Assembly (NCBI GenBank): GCA_902796705.1
Contig: CADBQF010000243.1
Location: forward strand, 1 to 15,464
Direction of reading: 5' to 3'
Source of the DNA: Ruminococcus flavefaciens
GTDB taxonomy: Bacteria > Bacillota > Clostridia > Oscillospirales > Ruminococcaceae
Length of the DNA: 15,464 nucleotides
Below, piece by piece: positions 1-11,887 of this stretch (positions are counted from its first letter, which is position 1; the number at the start of each line of letters is the position of its first letter). The position numbers and the translations under genes were made by a program. Below the pieces are notes generated by a model. It made no database searches, was not told the origin of the DNA, and worked only from the letters and a program-made list of their open reading frames with translations.

Positions 1-45
1 GTCCCGTCAGGGGAAATTTCATGTTAAAAGTCTTTGGAAGGGGGT

Positions 46-82
46 GTGGGGGAGAACCTTTCCTCAGAAAGGTTTCCCCCAC
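46..82. repeat. GC-rich palindromic hairpin downstream of spoVM
   Basis: The left arm (46-61, GTGGGGGAGAACCTTT) and right arm (68-82, AAAGGTTTCCCCCAC) are complementary over 15 pairs with one bulged base, around a 6-nt loop (62-67). It starts about 40 nt after the spoVM stop, so it could end or protect the 3' end of the operon mRNA. However, neither side is followed by a clear U-tract: the minus-strand continuation is C-rich. The flank and the sequence style resemble short palindromes that I recall as dispersed in ruminococcal genomes; that is memory, not a search. It could be a weak terminator, a dispersed repeat, or both. Confidence 0.6.
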
Positions 83-122
83 AAAAGCCACCCTCTGCTT
101 ACAGGTACGAGCCTTAGCTGTT

Positions 123-206
123 TTACTCCTCGTCTTTTTTTATGCGGAAGATGACTCTGAGGAGGCCGGAGATGAACTTCGGGCTTCTGATAACTACTAT
201 CTTCAT
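123..206 (-). CDS. spoVM: SpoVM, stage V sporulation small membrane-binding peptide
   Basis: A 27-codon ORF, too short for usual gene calling. It begins MKIVVIRSPKFISG and ends FRIKKDEE. It aligns without gaps to B. subtilis SpoVM (26 aa, begins MKFYTIKLPKFLGG): the N-terminal Met-Lys, the Pro9-Lys10-Phe11 core, the Gly at 14, and an amphipathic segment with a basic C-terminus. In B. subtilis SpoVM lies as an amphipathic helix on the forespore membrane, senses its convex curvature and anchors the coat ATPase SpoIVA; Pro9 matters for this. An ideal Shine-Dalgarno (GGGAGGG, 214-220) ends 7 nt before the ATG. The position directly after thiN matches Bacillus. The upstream spacer can fold over the Shine-Dalgarno (see 212-255). 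That the host makes endospores is inferred from this gene. Confidence 0.9.
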   Translation of the reverse strand: MKIVVIRSPKFISGLLRVIFRIKKDEE

Positions 207-211
207 ATGTA

Positions 212-255
212 ATCCCTCCCTTGATGATATATCTCATTATATTCAGGGGAGGGAT
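212..255 (-). promoter_or_regulatory. Hairpin that would sequester the spoVM ribosome-binding site
   Basis: In the minus-strand RNA, the 5' arm AUCCCUCCC (255-247) is perfectly complementary to the 3' arm GGGAGGGAU (220-212). After one mismatch (246/221) three more pairs form (245-243 with 222-224), leaving an 18-nt loop (225-242). The 3' arm contains the whole spoVM Shine-Dalgarno. The structure has no U-tract, so it does not look like a terminator. The pairing is seen directly; the regulatory role is inferred. Confidence 0.55.
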
Positions 256-265
256 ATTCTGTTAC
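236..265 (-). promoter_or_regulatory. Candidate internal promoter for spoVM
   Basis: On the minus strand a perfect TATAAT (241-236) lies 18 nt downstream of GTAACA (265-260), which matches TTGACA at 4 of 6 positions and overlaps the thiN stop. Transcription would begin near 229, inside the loop of the 212-255 hairpin, giving an mRNA with a free Shine-Dalgarno. In B. subtilis spoVM is transcribed under sigma-E. The overlapping 8-mer AATATAAT shares 6 of 8 bases with the sigma-E -10 consensus, but I see no well-spaced sigma-E -35. The sigma factor is therefore undecided, and an AT-rich spacer can produce such boxes by chance. Confidence 0.3.
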
Positions 266-882
266 ATTGCGGAGCGGACTATGAGTGCCGTTCCGGAAGA
301 TATTTCAAGATATGCACTTTCAGATGCTATCTCGTTGCTCACGCCGAGCGGAAAGCTTCTTGTGAGCGTGTAGTCGGTAAGCGGATATTTCACGCCTGTC
401 ATGCTGTCGATATGTACCTCGTCTGACACGGCAAATACCGAGAAATACCAGTTCTCACGCAGAGGAAAGATATGCTCCCCTGCCCCTGCGAGCATCATCT
501 CGTTGCGGCTGTCAGAAATTATCATACTGCCGCCGTGTTCCATTACGAAAGTCATCGTCTGGATATTGGCTATAGTGTGATCGATGCGGCCGCCCGTTCC
601 GCCGTAGAGGACTATTTTTTCAGCTCCTCTTTCGAGTGCTGTCCTGACGGCGAGCATCGTGTCGGTATCGTCTTTTTCGGGGACGCTGCGGTGTATCTCG
701 ATGCCGCCGGGAAGCTCTCCGGAATAGGAATCGAAGTCGCCAACGAGGATATCCGGCTTTATACCGAGAGCGGAGGCATATTCATATCCTCTGTCGGCAC
801 ATATCACGATATCTCCGGATTCCACTCTGATATGCGATGTATCATCTATGACACCGCCTGCAAATATACGGCAAGTCTTCAT
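262..882 (-). CDS. thiN: Thiamine pyrophosphokinase
   Basis: Transfers pyrophosphate from ATP to thiamine, giving thiamine diphosphate, the last step of thiamine salvage in the cytoplasm. The 206-aa product has the expected family length. Visible motifs are CADRG (28-32), GDFDS (48-52), EKDDTD (69-74), GGTGGRIDH (94-102) and SNE near the C-terminal substrate site (182-184). The ATG at 882 overlaps the rsgA stop as ATGA and has AAGGAG 11 nt upstream. A GTG four codons earlier sits directly on that Shine-Dalgarno, so I reject it. In Bacillus rpe lies between rsgA and thiN; here the two genes touch, so rpe must be elsewhere. spoVM follows after a 55-nt spacer. Confidence 0.93.
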   Translation of the reverse strand: MKTCRIFAGGVIDDTSHIRVESGDIVICADRGYEYASALGIKPDILVGDFDSYSGELPGGIEIHRSVPEKDDTDTMLAVRTALERGAEKIVLYGGTGGRIDHTIANIQTMTFVMEHGGSMIISDSRNEMMLAGAGEHIFPLRENWYFSVFAVSDEVHIDSMTGVKYPLTDYTLTRSFPLGVSNEIASESAYLEISSGTALIVRSAM

Positions 883-1739
883 TTTAGCTCCCACTCCTTT
901 AGCTGTTTAGCTTCTTCATACATAGCCTTGTAGCTCTCGTGGCGGCTCTCCGAGATATCTCCTGACTTTACAGCTTCAACTACTGCACAGCCTTTTTCGC
1001 ATATATGGCCGCAGTCACGGAAAAGGCAGTTTTCGGTATATTCCCTGAATTCCCTGAAACAGCCGGCAAGCTCCTCCTTGCGGATTATATCGTACCTGTT
1101 TGTCTCGAATGTGGAAAATCCGGGGGTATCGGCTATATATCCGCCGTCTGAGAGCTTGTAGAGCTGTGCGTGGCGGGTGGTGTGCTTACCTCTGCCGAGC
1201 TTTCGGCTTATCTCTGCTGTGGGGATATCAAGCGTCGGATCGACGGCGTTGAGGAGCGTAGACTTTCCTGCTCCGGAATTGCCTGTCAATGCACTTACCT
1301 TTCCACGCAGAAGCTCACGTACAGCTTCGATGCTGCTCTCGTCGGAATAATCAGCTTCGAGGACTTTTATGCCTATCCTGCTGTATATCTCCTTGACGGG
1401 AGTGCTGTCTCCGAGGTCGGTCTTTGTTATCACGACAGCCGGGGTGATGCCTTTATACTCGGCTATCGCTATGAATTTATCGAGAATAAGATAATTCGGT
1501 GCAGGACTGCAAGTGGACACAATAAATATCAGCTGATCTAAATTTGCAAGAGGCGGACGGATCAAATGATTCTTCCTCGGAAGTATCTCGCTGATGACTC
1601 CGTCTTTTATCTCCACATGGTCGCCTGCACACGGACTTATGCCCTTATTGCGGAAGATACCTCTTGCCTTGCACTCATATATGCCGTCAGGGGACTCTAC
1701 TGTATAGAGTCCCCCGACACATTTAGTTATTAATACCAT
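879..1739 (-). CDS. rsgA: RsgA/CpgA, circularly permuted GTPase of 30S ribosome assembly
   Basis: A late 30S assembly factor that binds near the decoding site and is released on GTP hydrolysis. At 286 aa it is close to B. subtilis CpgA. An N-terminal OB-fold (about 1-65) precedes the permuted GTPase: G4 TKTD (105-108), G1 P-loop GNSGAGKST (153-161), G2 region around GRGKHTT (182-188) and G3 DTPG (204-207). A C-terminal zinc knuckle uses C238, C243, H245 and C251. The ATG lies inside the 3' end of prkC (10-nt overlap), so its translation is probably coupled to the kinase. In B. subtilis CpgA is a substrate of PrkC, which fits this adjacency. The stop overlaps thiN by 4 nt. Confidence 0.96.
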   Translation of the reverse strand: MVLITKCVGGLYTVESPDGIYECKARGIFRNKGISPCAGDHVEIKDGVISEILPRKNHLIRPPLANLDQLIFIVSTCSPAPNYLILDKFIAIAEYKGITPAVVITKTDLGDSTPVKEIYSRIGIKVLEADYSDESSIEAVRELLRGKVSALTGNSGAGKSTLLNAVDPTLDIPTAEISRKLGRGKHTTRHAQLYKLSDGGYIADTPGFSTFETNRYDIIRKEELAGCFREFREYTENCLFRDCGHICEKGCAVVEAVKSGDISESRHESYKAMYEEAKQLKEWELK

Positions 1740-7126: not shown

Positions 7127-7803
7127 CTTCTTCTTGTACTGAGGATAAGCCTGAGAAGCTGGAGAAGTGATACGACGAGTGCAGTCACGTAAGTCATAGC
7201 TGCTGCTCTGAGTACCTTTTTCGCCTTGGGTATCTCGCTGCTTTCAAGGATATAGCAGGAATCGAGCGTCTTCAAAGCTCTGCTGCTCGCATCGAATTCT
7301 ACCGGGAGCGTAACGATCTGGAAGAGAACGACTGCTGCGAACATTCCGATAGACAGATAGATGAGCGGTGTTCCTATCGTCATCTCACTGAGGACGATGC
7401 CTATAAGAAGCACGAAATACCACAGTCTGGAGCAGATATTCGTTACAGGAACAAGCTTGCTCCTGATGACGATAGGCGTGTAGTTCTCTGCGTGCTGACA
7501 GGCATGGCCGCACTCATGAGCAGCCACTCCGATAGCGGATACGGAAGTTTTCCCGTATACAGCATCGGAAAGTCTTACGACATTTGCAGACGGATCGTAG
7601 TGATCCGTGAGATTTCCGCTTATATGCTCTATCCTTACGTTTTGCAGGCCGTTATTGTCGAGGATCTGCCTTGCTACCATATCGGCTGTCAGACCTCGTG
7701 AGTTGAGCTGCTTGCTGTACTTCTTGAATGTCAGTGAGACATTGATCTGTGCTGCGATCGGCAGCAGGATCATAGCCAGTATAAAAAGTATATACAAACC
7801 CAT
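7123..7803 (-). CDS. YugP-type membrane zinc metallopeptidase
   Basis: A 226-aa membrane protein of the neutral zinc metallopeptidase family (B. subtilis YugP, Pfam Zn_peptidase_2). An N-terminal membrane helix (about 3-22) is followed by a soluble segment, the zinc site HECGH (96-100), hydrophobic segments at about 123-144, 146-168 and 197-221, and a basic C-terminus (RRR). The conserved LPVEFDASSRA (166-176) may supply the third zinc ligand through E169. The physiological substrate is unknown to me. An excellent Shine-Dalgarno (GGAGGT) sits in the 13-nt gap after fmt. Its place between fmt and rsmB differs from B. subtilis but fits clostridial versions of this cluster as I recall them. Confidence 0.88.
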   Translation of the reverse strand: MGLYILFILAMILLPIAAQINVSLTFKKYSKQLNSRGLTADMVARQILDNNGLQNVRIEHISGNLTDHYDPSANVVRLSDAVYGKTSVSAIGVAAHECGHACQHAENYTPIVIRSKLVPVTNICSRLWYFVLLIGIVLSEMTIGTPLIYLSIGMFAAVVLFQIVTLPVEFDASSRALKTLDSCYILESSEIPKAKKVLRAAAMTYVTALVVSLLQLLRLILSTRRR

Positions 7804-9227: not shown

Positions 9228-11678
9228 TCATACGCCTGCATCGCCGTTCATATCGGCATAAAGGCTAACACCGGACATATCCCTGAGCTTTGAGGACTCT
9301 TTGAGGATACTGCTGATGAAGCCACGCATCTCGGCATTGTTTTTGCATTTTATGATTATCCTGTAGCGGTACTTTCCGTTGAGTTTCCCGTAGGAACATC
9401 TCACCGGGCCAAGCACACGCACGGGAGTTTTCGGCTGTAATCTCCGCAGGGAAGCTCTCATAAGCTCCATGACGGCATCTGTGCCTTTTTTGACTTGTTC
9501 CTCTGTATTTCCGGCAAAAGCGAGTATGCACATATCGCATATCGGCGGAAATATCATGGCACGGCGGATAGCTATCTCCTCATTGTAGAAAGCCTTGTAG
9601 TCCTGACCGGCAGCGAGATTCATGACGTAGTGGTCGGGCATGAAAGTCTGCAAGACCGCTCTGCCCTTCTTCTCTCCTCTGCCGCTCCTGCCTACTACCT
9701 GCGTGATGAGCGAGAATGTTCTCTCATAGCTGCGGAAATCTCCGGCGAAGAGAGCTTTATCGACCGAAAGCACGCCGACGAGCGTTACATTCGGGAAGTC
9801 GAGTCCCTTGCCTATCATCTGAGTACCTGCCATGATGTCGTATTCTCCCCTCCTGAACGCATTGAAGCCTTTTTCGTAGGAATATCTTGAAAAAGTCGTA
9901 TCGGCGTCCATTCGCAGTATCCTTGCCTGCGGGAAATACATATTAAGTTCTTCTTCGAGCTTCTGAGTGCCGAAACCCATATGTCTGAGCCGCACCGAGC
10001 CGCAGGTCGGGCATTTTTCCGGCATTTCGGAAACATAGCCGCAGTAGTGGCACATCATGCGATCGTTTTTCTTGTGGTATGTCAGCGGAACTGAGCAGTT
10101 CGGGCAGTATACCGGCTGGGAGCAGTCACAGCAGTTTATTATAGTATGATAACCTCTCCTGTTGAGAAGAAGTATCGTCTGCTCGCCGTTTTCGAGATTC
10201 TGTTTTATCTCATTTGTAAGACGGCGGCTGAATTCTGTTATATTGCCGCAGCTCCGCTCTTCGTTCATATCGACTATCTCGACATCGGGAAGAATGCTGC
10301 TGCTGTAGCGGTGCTTCATCTCAAGGAGGTGATACACGCCTTTTTCAGCGTAGTAATAGCTCTCCACCGACGGAGTTGCCGACGCAAGGAGCAGAACTGC
10401 CCCGTGATACGCACATCTCTGTTTTGCGATGTCATGAGTATAGTATCTCGGTGAACTTTCCGATTTATACGAACGTTCGCCTTCTTCGTCGAGTATAATT
10501 ATGCCTATGTCCTCAAGGGGGGCAAAAACGGCACTTCTCGTACCGATGACGATATCGGCTTCGCCACGCTTTATCCGCTTGTACTCGTCAAATCTTTGAA
10601 ATAAAGAAAGACCACTGTGTATAACTGCTACACGTTCTCCAAACAATGCTTTAAATCTTCTTTGCACCTGTGGAGTAAGACCTATCTCCGGTATAAGAAG
10701 CATCGCCTTCTTTCCGGAAGATATGGTAAAATGTATGAGTTTTTCAAATACAGATGTCTTTCCGCTGCCTGTGACTCCGTGGAGGAGGAAGACTTCCGGT
10801 CTGCCGGAGGCTATCCTCTTTGACACGGCATCGAATACGTTCTGTTGTTCTTCTGAAAGTACTATGTTTTCAGGAGACACTCTTTCATATTCTTCAGAAT
10901 CAACTATTCGATAATATTCAGCTTCATATTCTTCTGCTGCACCTTTTTCCGCAAGGTTTTTTATAACAATAGGAGTTACACCACACATATACGCAGCTTC
11001 ATTTACCGTCATTGCACCATTATCCATTAGAAAATCGGCAACTTTTTTCTGCTTTTCAGTAAGACTTATTTCTTCTGGAGAATCAAGATATCTTTGTGTA
11101 AGGCGTACACTTTTAACGTAAGCATCTTTTACATTCTGACGAAACTTATCATTAGGGCAAAGCAAACCTTTCTTACAAAGCTCATCTAAATATTTTCTTC
11201 CATTCGCAGTAATATGTTCCTCTATTATAGAATCAAATTCCTGTTCATTTTTCGACAAACGAAGCTTTTTCAACAGCTCTGAACCATTTACTGATAAATC
11301 CTTACTGCTATAGTTACTTTGTAAAAGAATATACTTCTCCGATATCTTTATTGACATAGCAGGAGAAAGCATAGTTTTAACAGCATCAAACCACGTACAA
11401 AAAGTACGGCTATGGAGGTATTCAGCAAGTCCAAGGAGTTCTTCCGAAAGAACAGGTTTTATATCTATAACCGAAATTATAGATTTTAACCCTTTTGTTT
11501 CGCTTTTTGAAAGTCGAAAAATCATTCCGACTCTATGATTATTTCCTATGCCAAAAGGAACTATTACACGGCAGCCACAAGCTATTGTCTGAGATAATTC
11601 TTCTGGAATTGCATATGAAAAAAGCTTATCAAAAGAATACAATGCCGAGCTGACGGCAATTTCCGCTGTAAGGGACAT
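9228..11678 (-). CDS. priA: PriA, primosomal 3'-5' DNA helicase for replication restart
   Basis: Recognises stalled forks and D-loops and reloads the replicative helicase. The 816-aa protein has an N-terminal 3' DNA-binding domain (about 1-105), a poorly conserved winged-helix region (about 130-265) and a superfamily 2 helicase core: Walker A GVTGSGKT (301-308), motif II DEEG (397-400), SATPS (433-437) and motif VI QVVGRSGRG (660-668). The zinc-binding insert has four CxxC pairs (C516/C519, C525/C528, C543/C546, C556/C559). Motif II ends in Gly where most PriA have His. The 5' third, roughly 10855-11640, is much more AT-rich than the rest. The ATG shares one base with the rpoZ stop (TGATG) and has no clear Shine-Dalgarno, so translation is probably coupled. 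Confidence 0.95.
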   Translation of the reverse strand: MSLTAEIAVSSALYSFDKLFSYAIPEELSQTIACGCRVIVPFGIGNNHRVGMIFRLSKSETKGLKSIISVIDIKPVLSEELLGLAEYLHSRTFCTWFDAVKTMLSPAMSIKISEKYILLQSNYSSKDLSVNGSELLKKLRLSKNEQEFDSIIEEHITANGRKYLDELCKKGLLCPNDKFRQNVKDAYVKSVRLTQRYLDSPEEISLTEKQKKVADFLMDNGAMTVNEAAYMCGVTPIVIKNLAEKGAAEEYEAEYYRIVDSEEYERVSPENIVLSEEQQNVFDAVSKRIASGRPEVFLLHGVTGSGKTSVFEKLIHFTISSGKKAMLLIPEIGLTPQVQRRFKALFGERVAVIHSGLSLFQRFDEYKRIKRGEADIVIGTRSAVFAPLEDIGIIILDEEGERSYKSESSPRYYTHDIAKQRCAYHGAVLLLASATPSVESYYYAEKGVYHLLEMKHRYSSSILPDVEIVDMNEERSCGNITEFSRRLTNEIKQNLENGEQTILLLNRRGYHTIINCCDCSQPVYCPNCSVPLTYHKKNDRMMCHYCGYVSEMPEKCPTCGSVRLRHMGFGTQKLEEELNMYFPQARILRMDADTTFSRYSYEKGFNAFRRGEYDIMAGTQMIGKGLDFPNVTLVGVLSVDKALFAGDFRSYERTFSLITQVVGRSGRGEKKGRAVLQTFMPDHYVMNLAAGQDYKAFYNEEIAIRRAMIFPPICDMCILAFAGNTEEQVKKGTDAVMELMRASLRRLQPKTPVRVLGPVRCSYGKLNGKYRYRIIIKCKNNAEMRGFISSILKESSKLRDMSGVSLYADMNGDAGV
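10570..11640. other. AT-rich, compositionally atypical segment within priA
   Basis: Hand counts of 60-nt lines give 18-22 G+C at 10861-10920, 11041-11100, 11101-11160, 11221-11280 and 11281-11340 (30-37%), against 34 of 60 (57%) at 9601-9660 and 32 of 60 at 10501-10560. Lines between 10561 and 10740 are intermediate (38-42%), with a return to about 50% at 10741-10860. Normal composition resumes for the first dozen priA codons (after about 11640). The reading frame is intact throughout. The cause is inferred (see findings). Confidence 0.7.
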
Positions 11679-11887
11679 CAGTCAGTGTTGGTGGGATTTG
11701 TGTAAACTATCTTACACTTTCCGCTTGCTATCTCCTCAACAGCCGTTTTTACGGGCTTTTCTTCAAGCACCTGATTATTCTCGTAGAGTTCGTCCGTTAT
11801 CTCTCTTGCACGCTTTGCAACGGCGATAACGAGTGAGTAGGGACTCTCATTCTTTGAAATTATCTGGTTTACTGCTGGTCTTAACAT
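11678..11887 (-). CDS. rpoZ: RNA polymerase omega subunit
   Basis: Small subunit that helps RNA polymerase assembly by holding the beta-prime subunit. The product is 69 aa, normal for Firmicutes. The N-terminus ([20 protein letters not shown]) and the segment AVAKRAREITDEL (22-34) match the family, and the KPVKTAVEEIASGK helix (44-57) is typical. The ATG overlaps the gmk stop as TAATG, with GAGGTG 8 nt upstream. The stop overlaps priA by one base; coaBC, which sits here in Bacillus, is missing. Confidence 0.95.
   Translation of the reverse strand: MLRPAVNQIISKNESPYSLVIAVAKRAREITDELYENNQVLEEKPVKTAVEEIASGKCKIVYTNPTNTD

Follow-up and report, generated by a model that had tools for sequence, protein, structure and literature searches.

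The 55-nt gap between thiN and spoVM in Ruminococcus flavefaciens probably functions as a translation lock whose state depends on where transcription starts, with spoVM kept off in read-through RNA and on in sporulation RNA that begins within the loop of a hairpin. The gap lies in the window, by which we mean the whole 15,464-nt stretch of DNA analysed. In the mechanism that we propose, spoVM would close a growth operon, with no terminator separating it from the genes upstream, and read-through RNA from this upstream housekeeping operon would fold so that the spoVM Shine-Dalgarno (SD) sequence is paired, a structure supported by the comparisons below; SpoVM would then presumably not be made from this RNA. 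During sporulation a mother-cell RNA polymerase, of the sigma-E or sigma-K class to which the promoter points, would start close to positions 229-230, and the resulting RNA, without the 5' arm of the hairpin, would have an open SD from which SpoVM could be made. SpoVM inhibits FtsH (PMC1838920), and the likely benefit would be that an FtsH-inhibiting membrane peptide is kept out of growing cells.

The thiN-spoVM gap and its hairpin

The coordinates of the locus are collected in Table 1. A run of 15 genes ends with thiN and spoVM and, as the original prediction for this DNA had it, a gap of 55 nt separates these two, at 207-261 on the minus strand. We take the order of the run to be yicC-remA-gmk-rpoZ-priA-def-fmt-(peptidase)-rsmB-rlmN-prpC-prkC-rsgA-thiN-spoVM, the names other than spoVM and thiN being our assumption; an rpoZ-like ORF lies at 11678-11887. 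The spoVM product had no Pfam match. No intrinsic terminator (a GC stem followed by a T run) was found in window positions 1-1000, and T-rich runs, scored irrespective of stems, were present in 7 of 78 gaps of relatives. On the 3' side of spoVM, positions 46-82 hold a near-perfect inverted repeat (GTGGGGG...AACCTTTC...GAAAGGTT...CCCCCAC), a dispersed repeat or terminator-like element whose core recurs at unrelated sites (e.g. L231, L170, L386), and a 27-base stretch behind spoVM (100-126) has a second copy of 96% identity elsewhere in the genome, at G000:C212:5972-5998.

Table 1. Features of the thiN-spoVM locus in the window (all on the minus strand)
Feature	Position	Description	Basis
spoVM	123..206	27 codons; ATG 206-204	NCBIfam SpoVM_broad NF033436, E 2.5e-13
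thiN (thiamine diphosphokinase)	262..894	upstream gene; stop codon 264-262	TIGR01378 E 1e-42, PF04263, PF04265
spoVM SD	221-215	AGGGAGG; within 3' arm	
3' arm of lock	212..220	holds all but the first base of the SD	predicted fold
5' arm of lock	247..255	pairs with 220-212, 9 perfect pairs	predicted fold
Upper stem and loop	222..245	245-238 with 231-227 and 224-222; carries the -10	predicted fold
Putative -10 element	236..244	GAATATAAT; inside the stem-loop above the arms	mother-cell sporulation type
-35-like element	260..265	GTAACA; overlaps thiN stop codon	

Folding recovered the nine-pair stem over the SD that had been predicted, together with the mismatch (246/221) and the three pairs beyond it, followed by five more. 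The gap RNA folded at -20.4 kcal/mol (z -3.2), which 2 of 200 dinucleotide shuffles equalled, and the stem was still predicted to form in a 261-nt RNA around the gap. The predicted SD-opening cost was 18.0 kcal/mol for read-through RNA vs 1.2 for loop-started RNA, the former being the highest value in the run (0.9-7.6 for the other 14 genes, whose SD positions were chosen mechanically and include several weak SDs). The cost was 11.0 kcal/mol when the 5' arm was shuffled and 9.6 when the upstream sequence was, with 0% and 2% of the respective shuffles reaching the native value; part of the opening cost in the window is therefore composition.

Conservation and covariation of the pairing in relatives

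Of 100 genomes of the genus, 96 yielded a ThiN. Most thiN-spoVM gaps in relatives measured 45-70 nt, and four were larger, at 82-229 nt. We tabulated 85 spoVM leaders and took further the 80 that contained exact GAATATA[AC]T, the motif of the -10, which left L025, L057, L072, L088, and L109 out of the 80-leader counts; our widest set comprised 114 distinct spoVM leaders of the genus. Of these five, L025 and L088 showed long arm pairings by eye, and in L109 (G054) and L072 (G004) we noted insertions in the loop between the -10 and the SD, with flanking arms complementary by eye. The spoVM start was non-ATG in 37 of the 114 distinct leaders (18 TTG, 16 GTG, 2 ACG, and 1 CTG), possibly a second brake on translation, and some of these starts may be assembly errors. 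One genome, G030, contained two spoVM-like copies with similar leaders (L022, L173), one of them cut by a contig end.

Arm swaps argued strongly for specific pairing. Across all 80 leaders, native arms gave -14.6 kcal/mol vs -10.2 for swapped arms, with 0 of 20,000 permutations reaching the native mean, and the 42 leaders of less than 75% identity gave -14.6 vs -10.3 kcal/mol (sd 0.40; 0 of 20,000). Against this, RNAalifold returned no consensus structure and no pairs from the full 77-row MAFFT alignment, presumably because the arm registers shift. As both register and loop length vary among leaders, we relied on the swaps, which need no alignment, and on pair counts in a subset sharing one register (47 of the 80 leaders, reduced to 39 with distinct arms; the other 33 leaders do not enter the count). 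The 39 rows were picked by their 3' sequence TA[TC]A[TC]C, a choice that sets the inner six pairs in advance, so the weight of the covariation falls on the outer ten. In these rows 80.9% of cells were paired, compared with 72.9% after shuffling and 30.6-53.2% with slid partners; 72 cells were changed on both sides vs 33.9 +- 4.3 shuffled; and the covariation score was 0.280 vs 0.143 +- 0.012 shuffled and 0.087-0.202 with slid partners. The other two of the five measures were weak, namely the number of pairs with change on both sides (9 vs 8.1; 152 of 500 shuffles reached 9) and the number of further pair types (24 vs 20.7; reached by 10 of 500 shuffles). Pair 13-38 was CG in 14 rows, GC in 13, and AU in 6 (33 of 39), and with the six unpaired rows excluded it underwent at least six state changes on the ThiN tree, each on both sides. 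Compensatory changes in the arms, proposed at the outset as a check, were present in the 39-row covariation, and we concluded that the swaps and these counts support the SD-sequestering hairpin as a real structure in relatives, conserved with covariation.

A covariance model (R1) built from the 39 source rows matched just upstream of spoVM in 81 of 119 spoVM-bearing genomes of the genus, a figure that holds partly by construction because all source rows came from the first 100 genomes; in the remaining 25 genomes, 24 of which have spoVM, it matched in 17. Matches away from spoVM (11 of 93) were all weak, with E values of 3e-5 to 0.005. Across 197 genomes of the order the window's genome alone gave a strong match, and by pattern search no spoVM was found at the matches in seven other order genomes (E 1.7e-4 or worse). 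A cassette pattern search gave 31 record matches, 27 of them in Ruminococcus, and a spoVM-like ORF followed in 27 of the 31. Of the four others, one preceded yabP (L333, a Ruminococcus MAG), one an asparagine synthase gene (L357, an Oscillospiraceae MAG), and one a BH0509-family ORF (L330, a MAG labelled Lysinibacillus); the last, in a Parabacteroides record (L344), preceded no recognised gene start.

Extent of the proposed lock and its genomic context

Averaged over the 80 leaders, the predicted cost of SD opening was 7.25 kcal/mol in read-through RNA, 4.19 with the 5' arm dinucleotide-shuffled, and 1.34 in loop-started RNA, for which we assumed a start 6 nt downstream of the -10. Seventy-five of these leaders exceeded their own shuffle mean and 42 exceeded 95% of shuffles. 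In the set of 114, 97 were above the shuffle mean (17 at or below it) and 61 above 95% of shuffles (53 not), so the lock is common, not universal. The original prediction had named relatives that keep the SD but lose the complementary arm as evidence against it, and such relatives do in part occur: of 96 leaders in the thiN context, 12 did not rise above the mean of their shuffles, although three of these, L041, L067, and L400, still cost 5.0-8.2 kcal/mol to open; examples of unlocked leaders behind thiN are L056, L082, L085, and L391. In other genera of the family a similar promoter was often kept, and 1 of 13 leaders was above 95% of shuffles, in a test that covered 13 of 29 loci, two of the 13 without a -10 found.

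If the lock were due to read-through, it should vanish where no co-directional gene lies upstream. We saw no clear loss where no gene reads into spoVM, a result rather against the simple rationale. Four divergent copies (L167-L170) have a TSCPD-domain gene as neighbour (by profile match for L167 and L169) and, judged by protein and leader sequences, form two closely related pairs; they still showed pairing, with SD-opening costs of 10.6, 6.9, 9.3, and 9.4 kcal/mol, respectively. Among copies behind co-directional genes other than thiN, L050, L399, and L401 were locked at close distance and L018 was locked at 160 nt, and L392, L395, L398, and L402, which follow a co-directional gene after 44-61 nt, were unlocked. 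The idea in the original prediction that the hairpin exists to silence read-through mRNA thus drew no confirmation from gene context, and because locking does not track context, the purpose of the lock is less certain than its structure.

These same contexts bear on an unlikely alternative, in which the hairpin serves the upstream housekeeping mRNA, as a 3' border that stabilises it or as a site where it is processed or cut, and covers the SD as a side effect. An RNA role at that site would also select for pairing, and the hairpin does stand right after the thiN stop codon in most species, but the arms include the SD to a degree beyond that of shuffled arms, and relocated copies that are not behind thiN (L050, L018, L401) keep the hairpin. 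The first of these, relocated behind trpA (TIGR00262), has kept arms of its own (AATCCTCC/GGAGGATT).

The predicted promoter in the loop

A consensus scan paired TATAAT (241-236) with GTAACA (265-260) at a spacer of 18 and 10 of 12 matches, and sites that good occurred at 2 per 1000 bases vs 1.1 expected. The promoter placed by the original prediction at this TATAAT, inside the loop, was retained; its -10 is better written as the longer, sporulation-type GAATATAAT (244-236), because the GAA is conserved too. Exact GAATATA[AC]T occurred in 80 of the 85 leaders, which were unselected, and in 105 of 114 in the full distinct set, and the promoter was the most conserved part of the thiN-spoVM gap. 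The AAC of the -35 had a constant position in 67-68 of 80 leaders, and L018, a copy that is not behind thiN, retains it. From the -10, transcription would start near 229-230, inside the loop, and a promoter so placed would yield a transcript without the 5' arm.

To characterise the class of the -10 we compared regions upstream of several genes of the same genus. The motif G[A/C]ATAnnAT was present upstream of spoIIIAA in 22 of 25 cases and of sipL in 14 of 19 (0.5 and 0.1 in shuffles), and in 69 of 74 spoVM regions, these last being preselected for GAATATA[AC]T. It was present in 0 of 24 rnpB upstream regions, where TTGAC (24 of 24) and TGnTAnnAT (21 of 24) were found. TTGAC occurred in none of the spoVM, spoIIIAA, and sipL upstream regions tested, and 0 of 74 spoVM regions had TTGAC or TGnTAnnAT. 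A sigma-A reading of TATAAT was dropped after the rnpB comparison, the TTGACA plus TGnTATAAT type being absent at spoVM. As to the identity of the genes compared, 0 of 40 genomes gave a spoIIIAA assignment above the TIGR02858 cut-off; the three spoIIIAA proteins scanned matched PF19568 well over its cut-off, with spoIIIAB- and spoIIIAC/AD-like genes following in the locus L260, and two sipL proteins scanned matched PF12673 (SipL), other members of the sets not being scanned individually. We used sipL, the preceding gene, in place of spoIVA because spoIVA lies inside an operon, with no promoter to compare in the preceding 130 nt. The window's genome contains a spoIIIAA-like gene, and spoIVA was not found in this assembly, which is 88.7% complete.

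According to two papers, B. subtilis spoIIIA and spoIVA are sigma-E genes and spoVM is listed as sigma-E-activated (PMC517825), C. difficile sipL, spoIVA, and spoVM are sigma-E dependent, and B. subtilis spoVM requires SpoIIID (PMC5607322). Since the spoVM -10 is shared with spoIIIAA and sipL, known sigma-E genes elsewhere, we read it as of the mother-cell type, and the motif comparisons support this sigma-E/K class over sigma-A. AAC[ACG] at the -35 distance was found in 59 of 74 spoVM, 3 of 25 spoIIIAA, and 3 of 19 sipL regions. The AC fits the sigma-K -35. With a -35 unlike those of spoIIIAA and sipL, spoVM may be transcribed by sigma-E with an activator or by sigma-K. Elsewhere in the family, spoVM is often preceded by GCATAGTAT or a similar site, close to the sigma-E/K -10 consensus CATAnnnT.

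A promoter within an inverted repeat also brings up the reading that the repeat acts as DNA, as an operator for a dimeric regulator or as part of the promoter, with no RNA role. We regard this as decidedly unlikely, even though the promoter lies at the centre of the repeat, the conserved upper arms (TGAATATA/TATATCA) are found again upstream of yabP and the asparagine synthase gene in related genomes, and divergent copies without a read-through gene keep the pairing. The sequence of the outer arms varies between species while their complementarity is kept, which is unusual for a protein site, and sipL, with a -10 of the same class, is almost without the repeat and has nearly no lock (2 of 19 leaders above 95% of shuffles).

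Very unlikely, in our judgement, is a pairing without selection, explained by the match of a pyrimidine-rich promoter spacer to a purine-rich SD. Composition clearly contributes, as the spacer positions are C/T rich and shuffled arms retain a mean opening cost well above that of loop-started RNA, but native arms exceed composition-matched shuffles and swaps, and the upper stem, which lies outside the SD, covaries. That the long leader is a switch opened by a signal (a thiamine ligand, temperature, or a protein), with read-through RNA translated conditionally, is hardly credible. Switches of that kind do look like an SD-sequestering stem beside a thiamine gene, but no Rfam covariance model matched window positions 1-1000 even at E 1 and the promoter explains the conserved loop sequence.

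Possible locks at other sporulation genes

The start-site-dependent lock that we prefer for spoVM may have a counterpart at spoIIIA. Twenty-six of 30 spoIIIA leaders (L245-L274) were usable, and in these the -10 G[A/C]ATAnnAT lay between the arms, which in a fair share of the species would form an SD-covering hairpin, with 10 of 26 above 95% of shuffles and 6 below the shuffle median. Arm swaps among 24 non-redundant leaders gave -11.0 kcal/mol for native vs -8.46 for swapped arms (sd 0.51; 0 of 20,000). In the wider promoter test 18 of 25 spoIIIAA leaders were scorable, one third of them above 95% of shuffles, and in the window's own genome the spoIIIA leader (L269 / L364, G000:C22) gave 7.5 vs 3.2 kcal/mol shuffled. 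By eye, many spoIIIA operons are preceded by a terminator-like hairpin and a T run.

The yabP leader (L333, about 7134-7210, minus strand) reads TGAATATAAT...TATATCA...GGAGG, and its lock did not go beyond shuffles (5.7 vs 4.1 kcal/mol, with 16% of shuffles reaching the native value). Scanning two genomes for a -10 with SD and ATG gave 44 matches, and 30 loci were folded; by eye the scanned loci were mostly non-sporulation and mostly unlocked, and we do not claim a genome-wide lock device. Tentatively, and with more doubt than confidence, we suggest that Ruminococcus might recurrently use promoter-in-loop SD locks to silence mother-cell sporulation genes in read-through RNA, at least at spoVM and spoIIIA, where the arms are unrelated in sequence and the geometry is the same, such that an RNA element and a sigma factor together would set the stage of translation.

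Relation to known systems and biological meaning

A review describes how, at phage T4 gene e, long transcripts begun at upstream promoters occlude the ribosome binding site by folding, and those from adjoining promoters, which lack the 5' strand, are translated, with an effect of about 100-fold (PMC3014915). The original prediction had drawn this parallel, and we take it up, in that the spoVM lock would work likewise, with long RNA locked and short RNA open in the predicted folds. The differences are that gene e, encoding lysozyme, is a phage gene with late promoters and a measured effect, whereas spoVM is a gene of the bacterial chromosome with a sporulation-type promoter. An SD-covering stem, part of which is missing from the RNA of a later promoter, has also been described for T4 I-TevI, I-TevII, I-TevIII, and segB and for Aeh1 mobE (PMC2988022). 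The spoVM SD would similarly lie in a stem, with a promoter placed to skip the 5' arm, but those genes are phage homing endonucleases and spoVM is a sporulation gene, and we claim no sequence kinship between them.

Compared by description with spoVM of B. subtilis and C. difficile, the Ruminococcus gene would share mother-cell sporulation transcription, and the available parts of those accounts describe no lock hairpin (PMC5607322, PMC517825). Among the open-access literature matches listed, none reported that spoVM, or any sporulation gene reached by read-through from a growth operon, has an SD lock, in keeping with the earlier impression that such a lock was undescribed for spoVM. Within the genus, endospores and a full sporulation gene set have been reported for R. 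bromii (PMC5814915).

If our reading is true, a control device of the phage T4 type acts on a bacterial developmental gene, and a 55-nt gap would tell growth RNA from sporulation RNA by its start site, without a protein or a terminator. This would explain how a growth operon can end in a gene for a possibly harmful peptide. A further warning would follow, namely that RNA-seq reads covering spoVM in growing Ruminococcus are no proof of SpoVM synthesis, and the -10 motif would provide a promoter signature for mother-cell genes of Ruminococcus.
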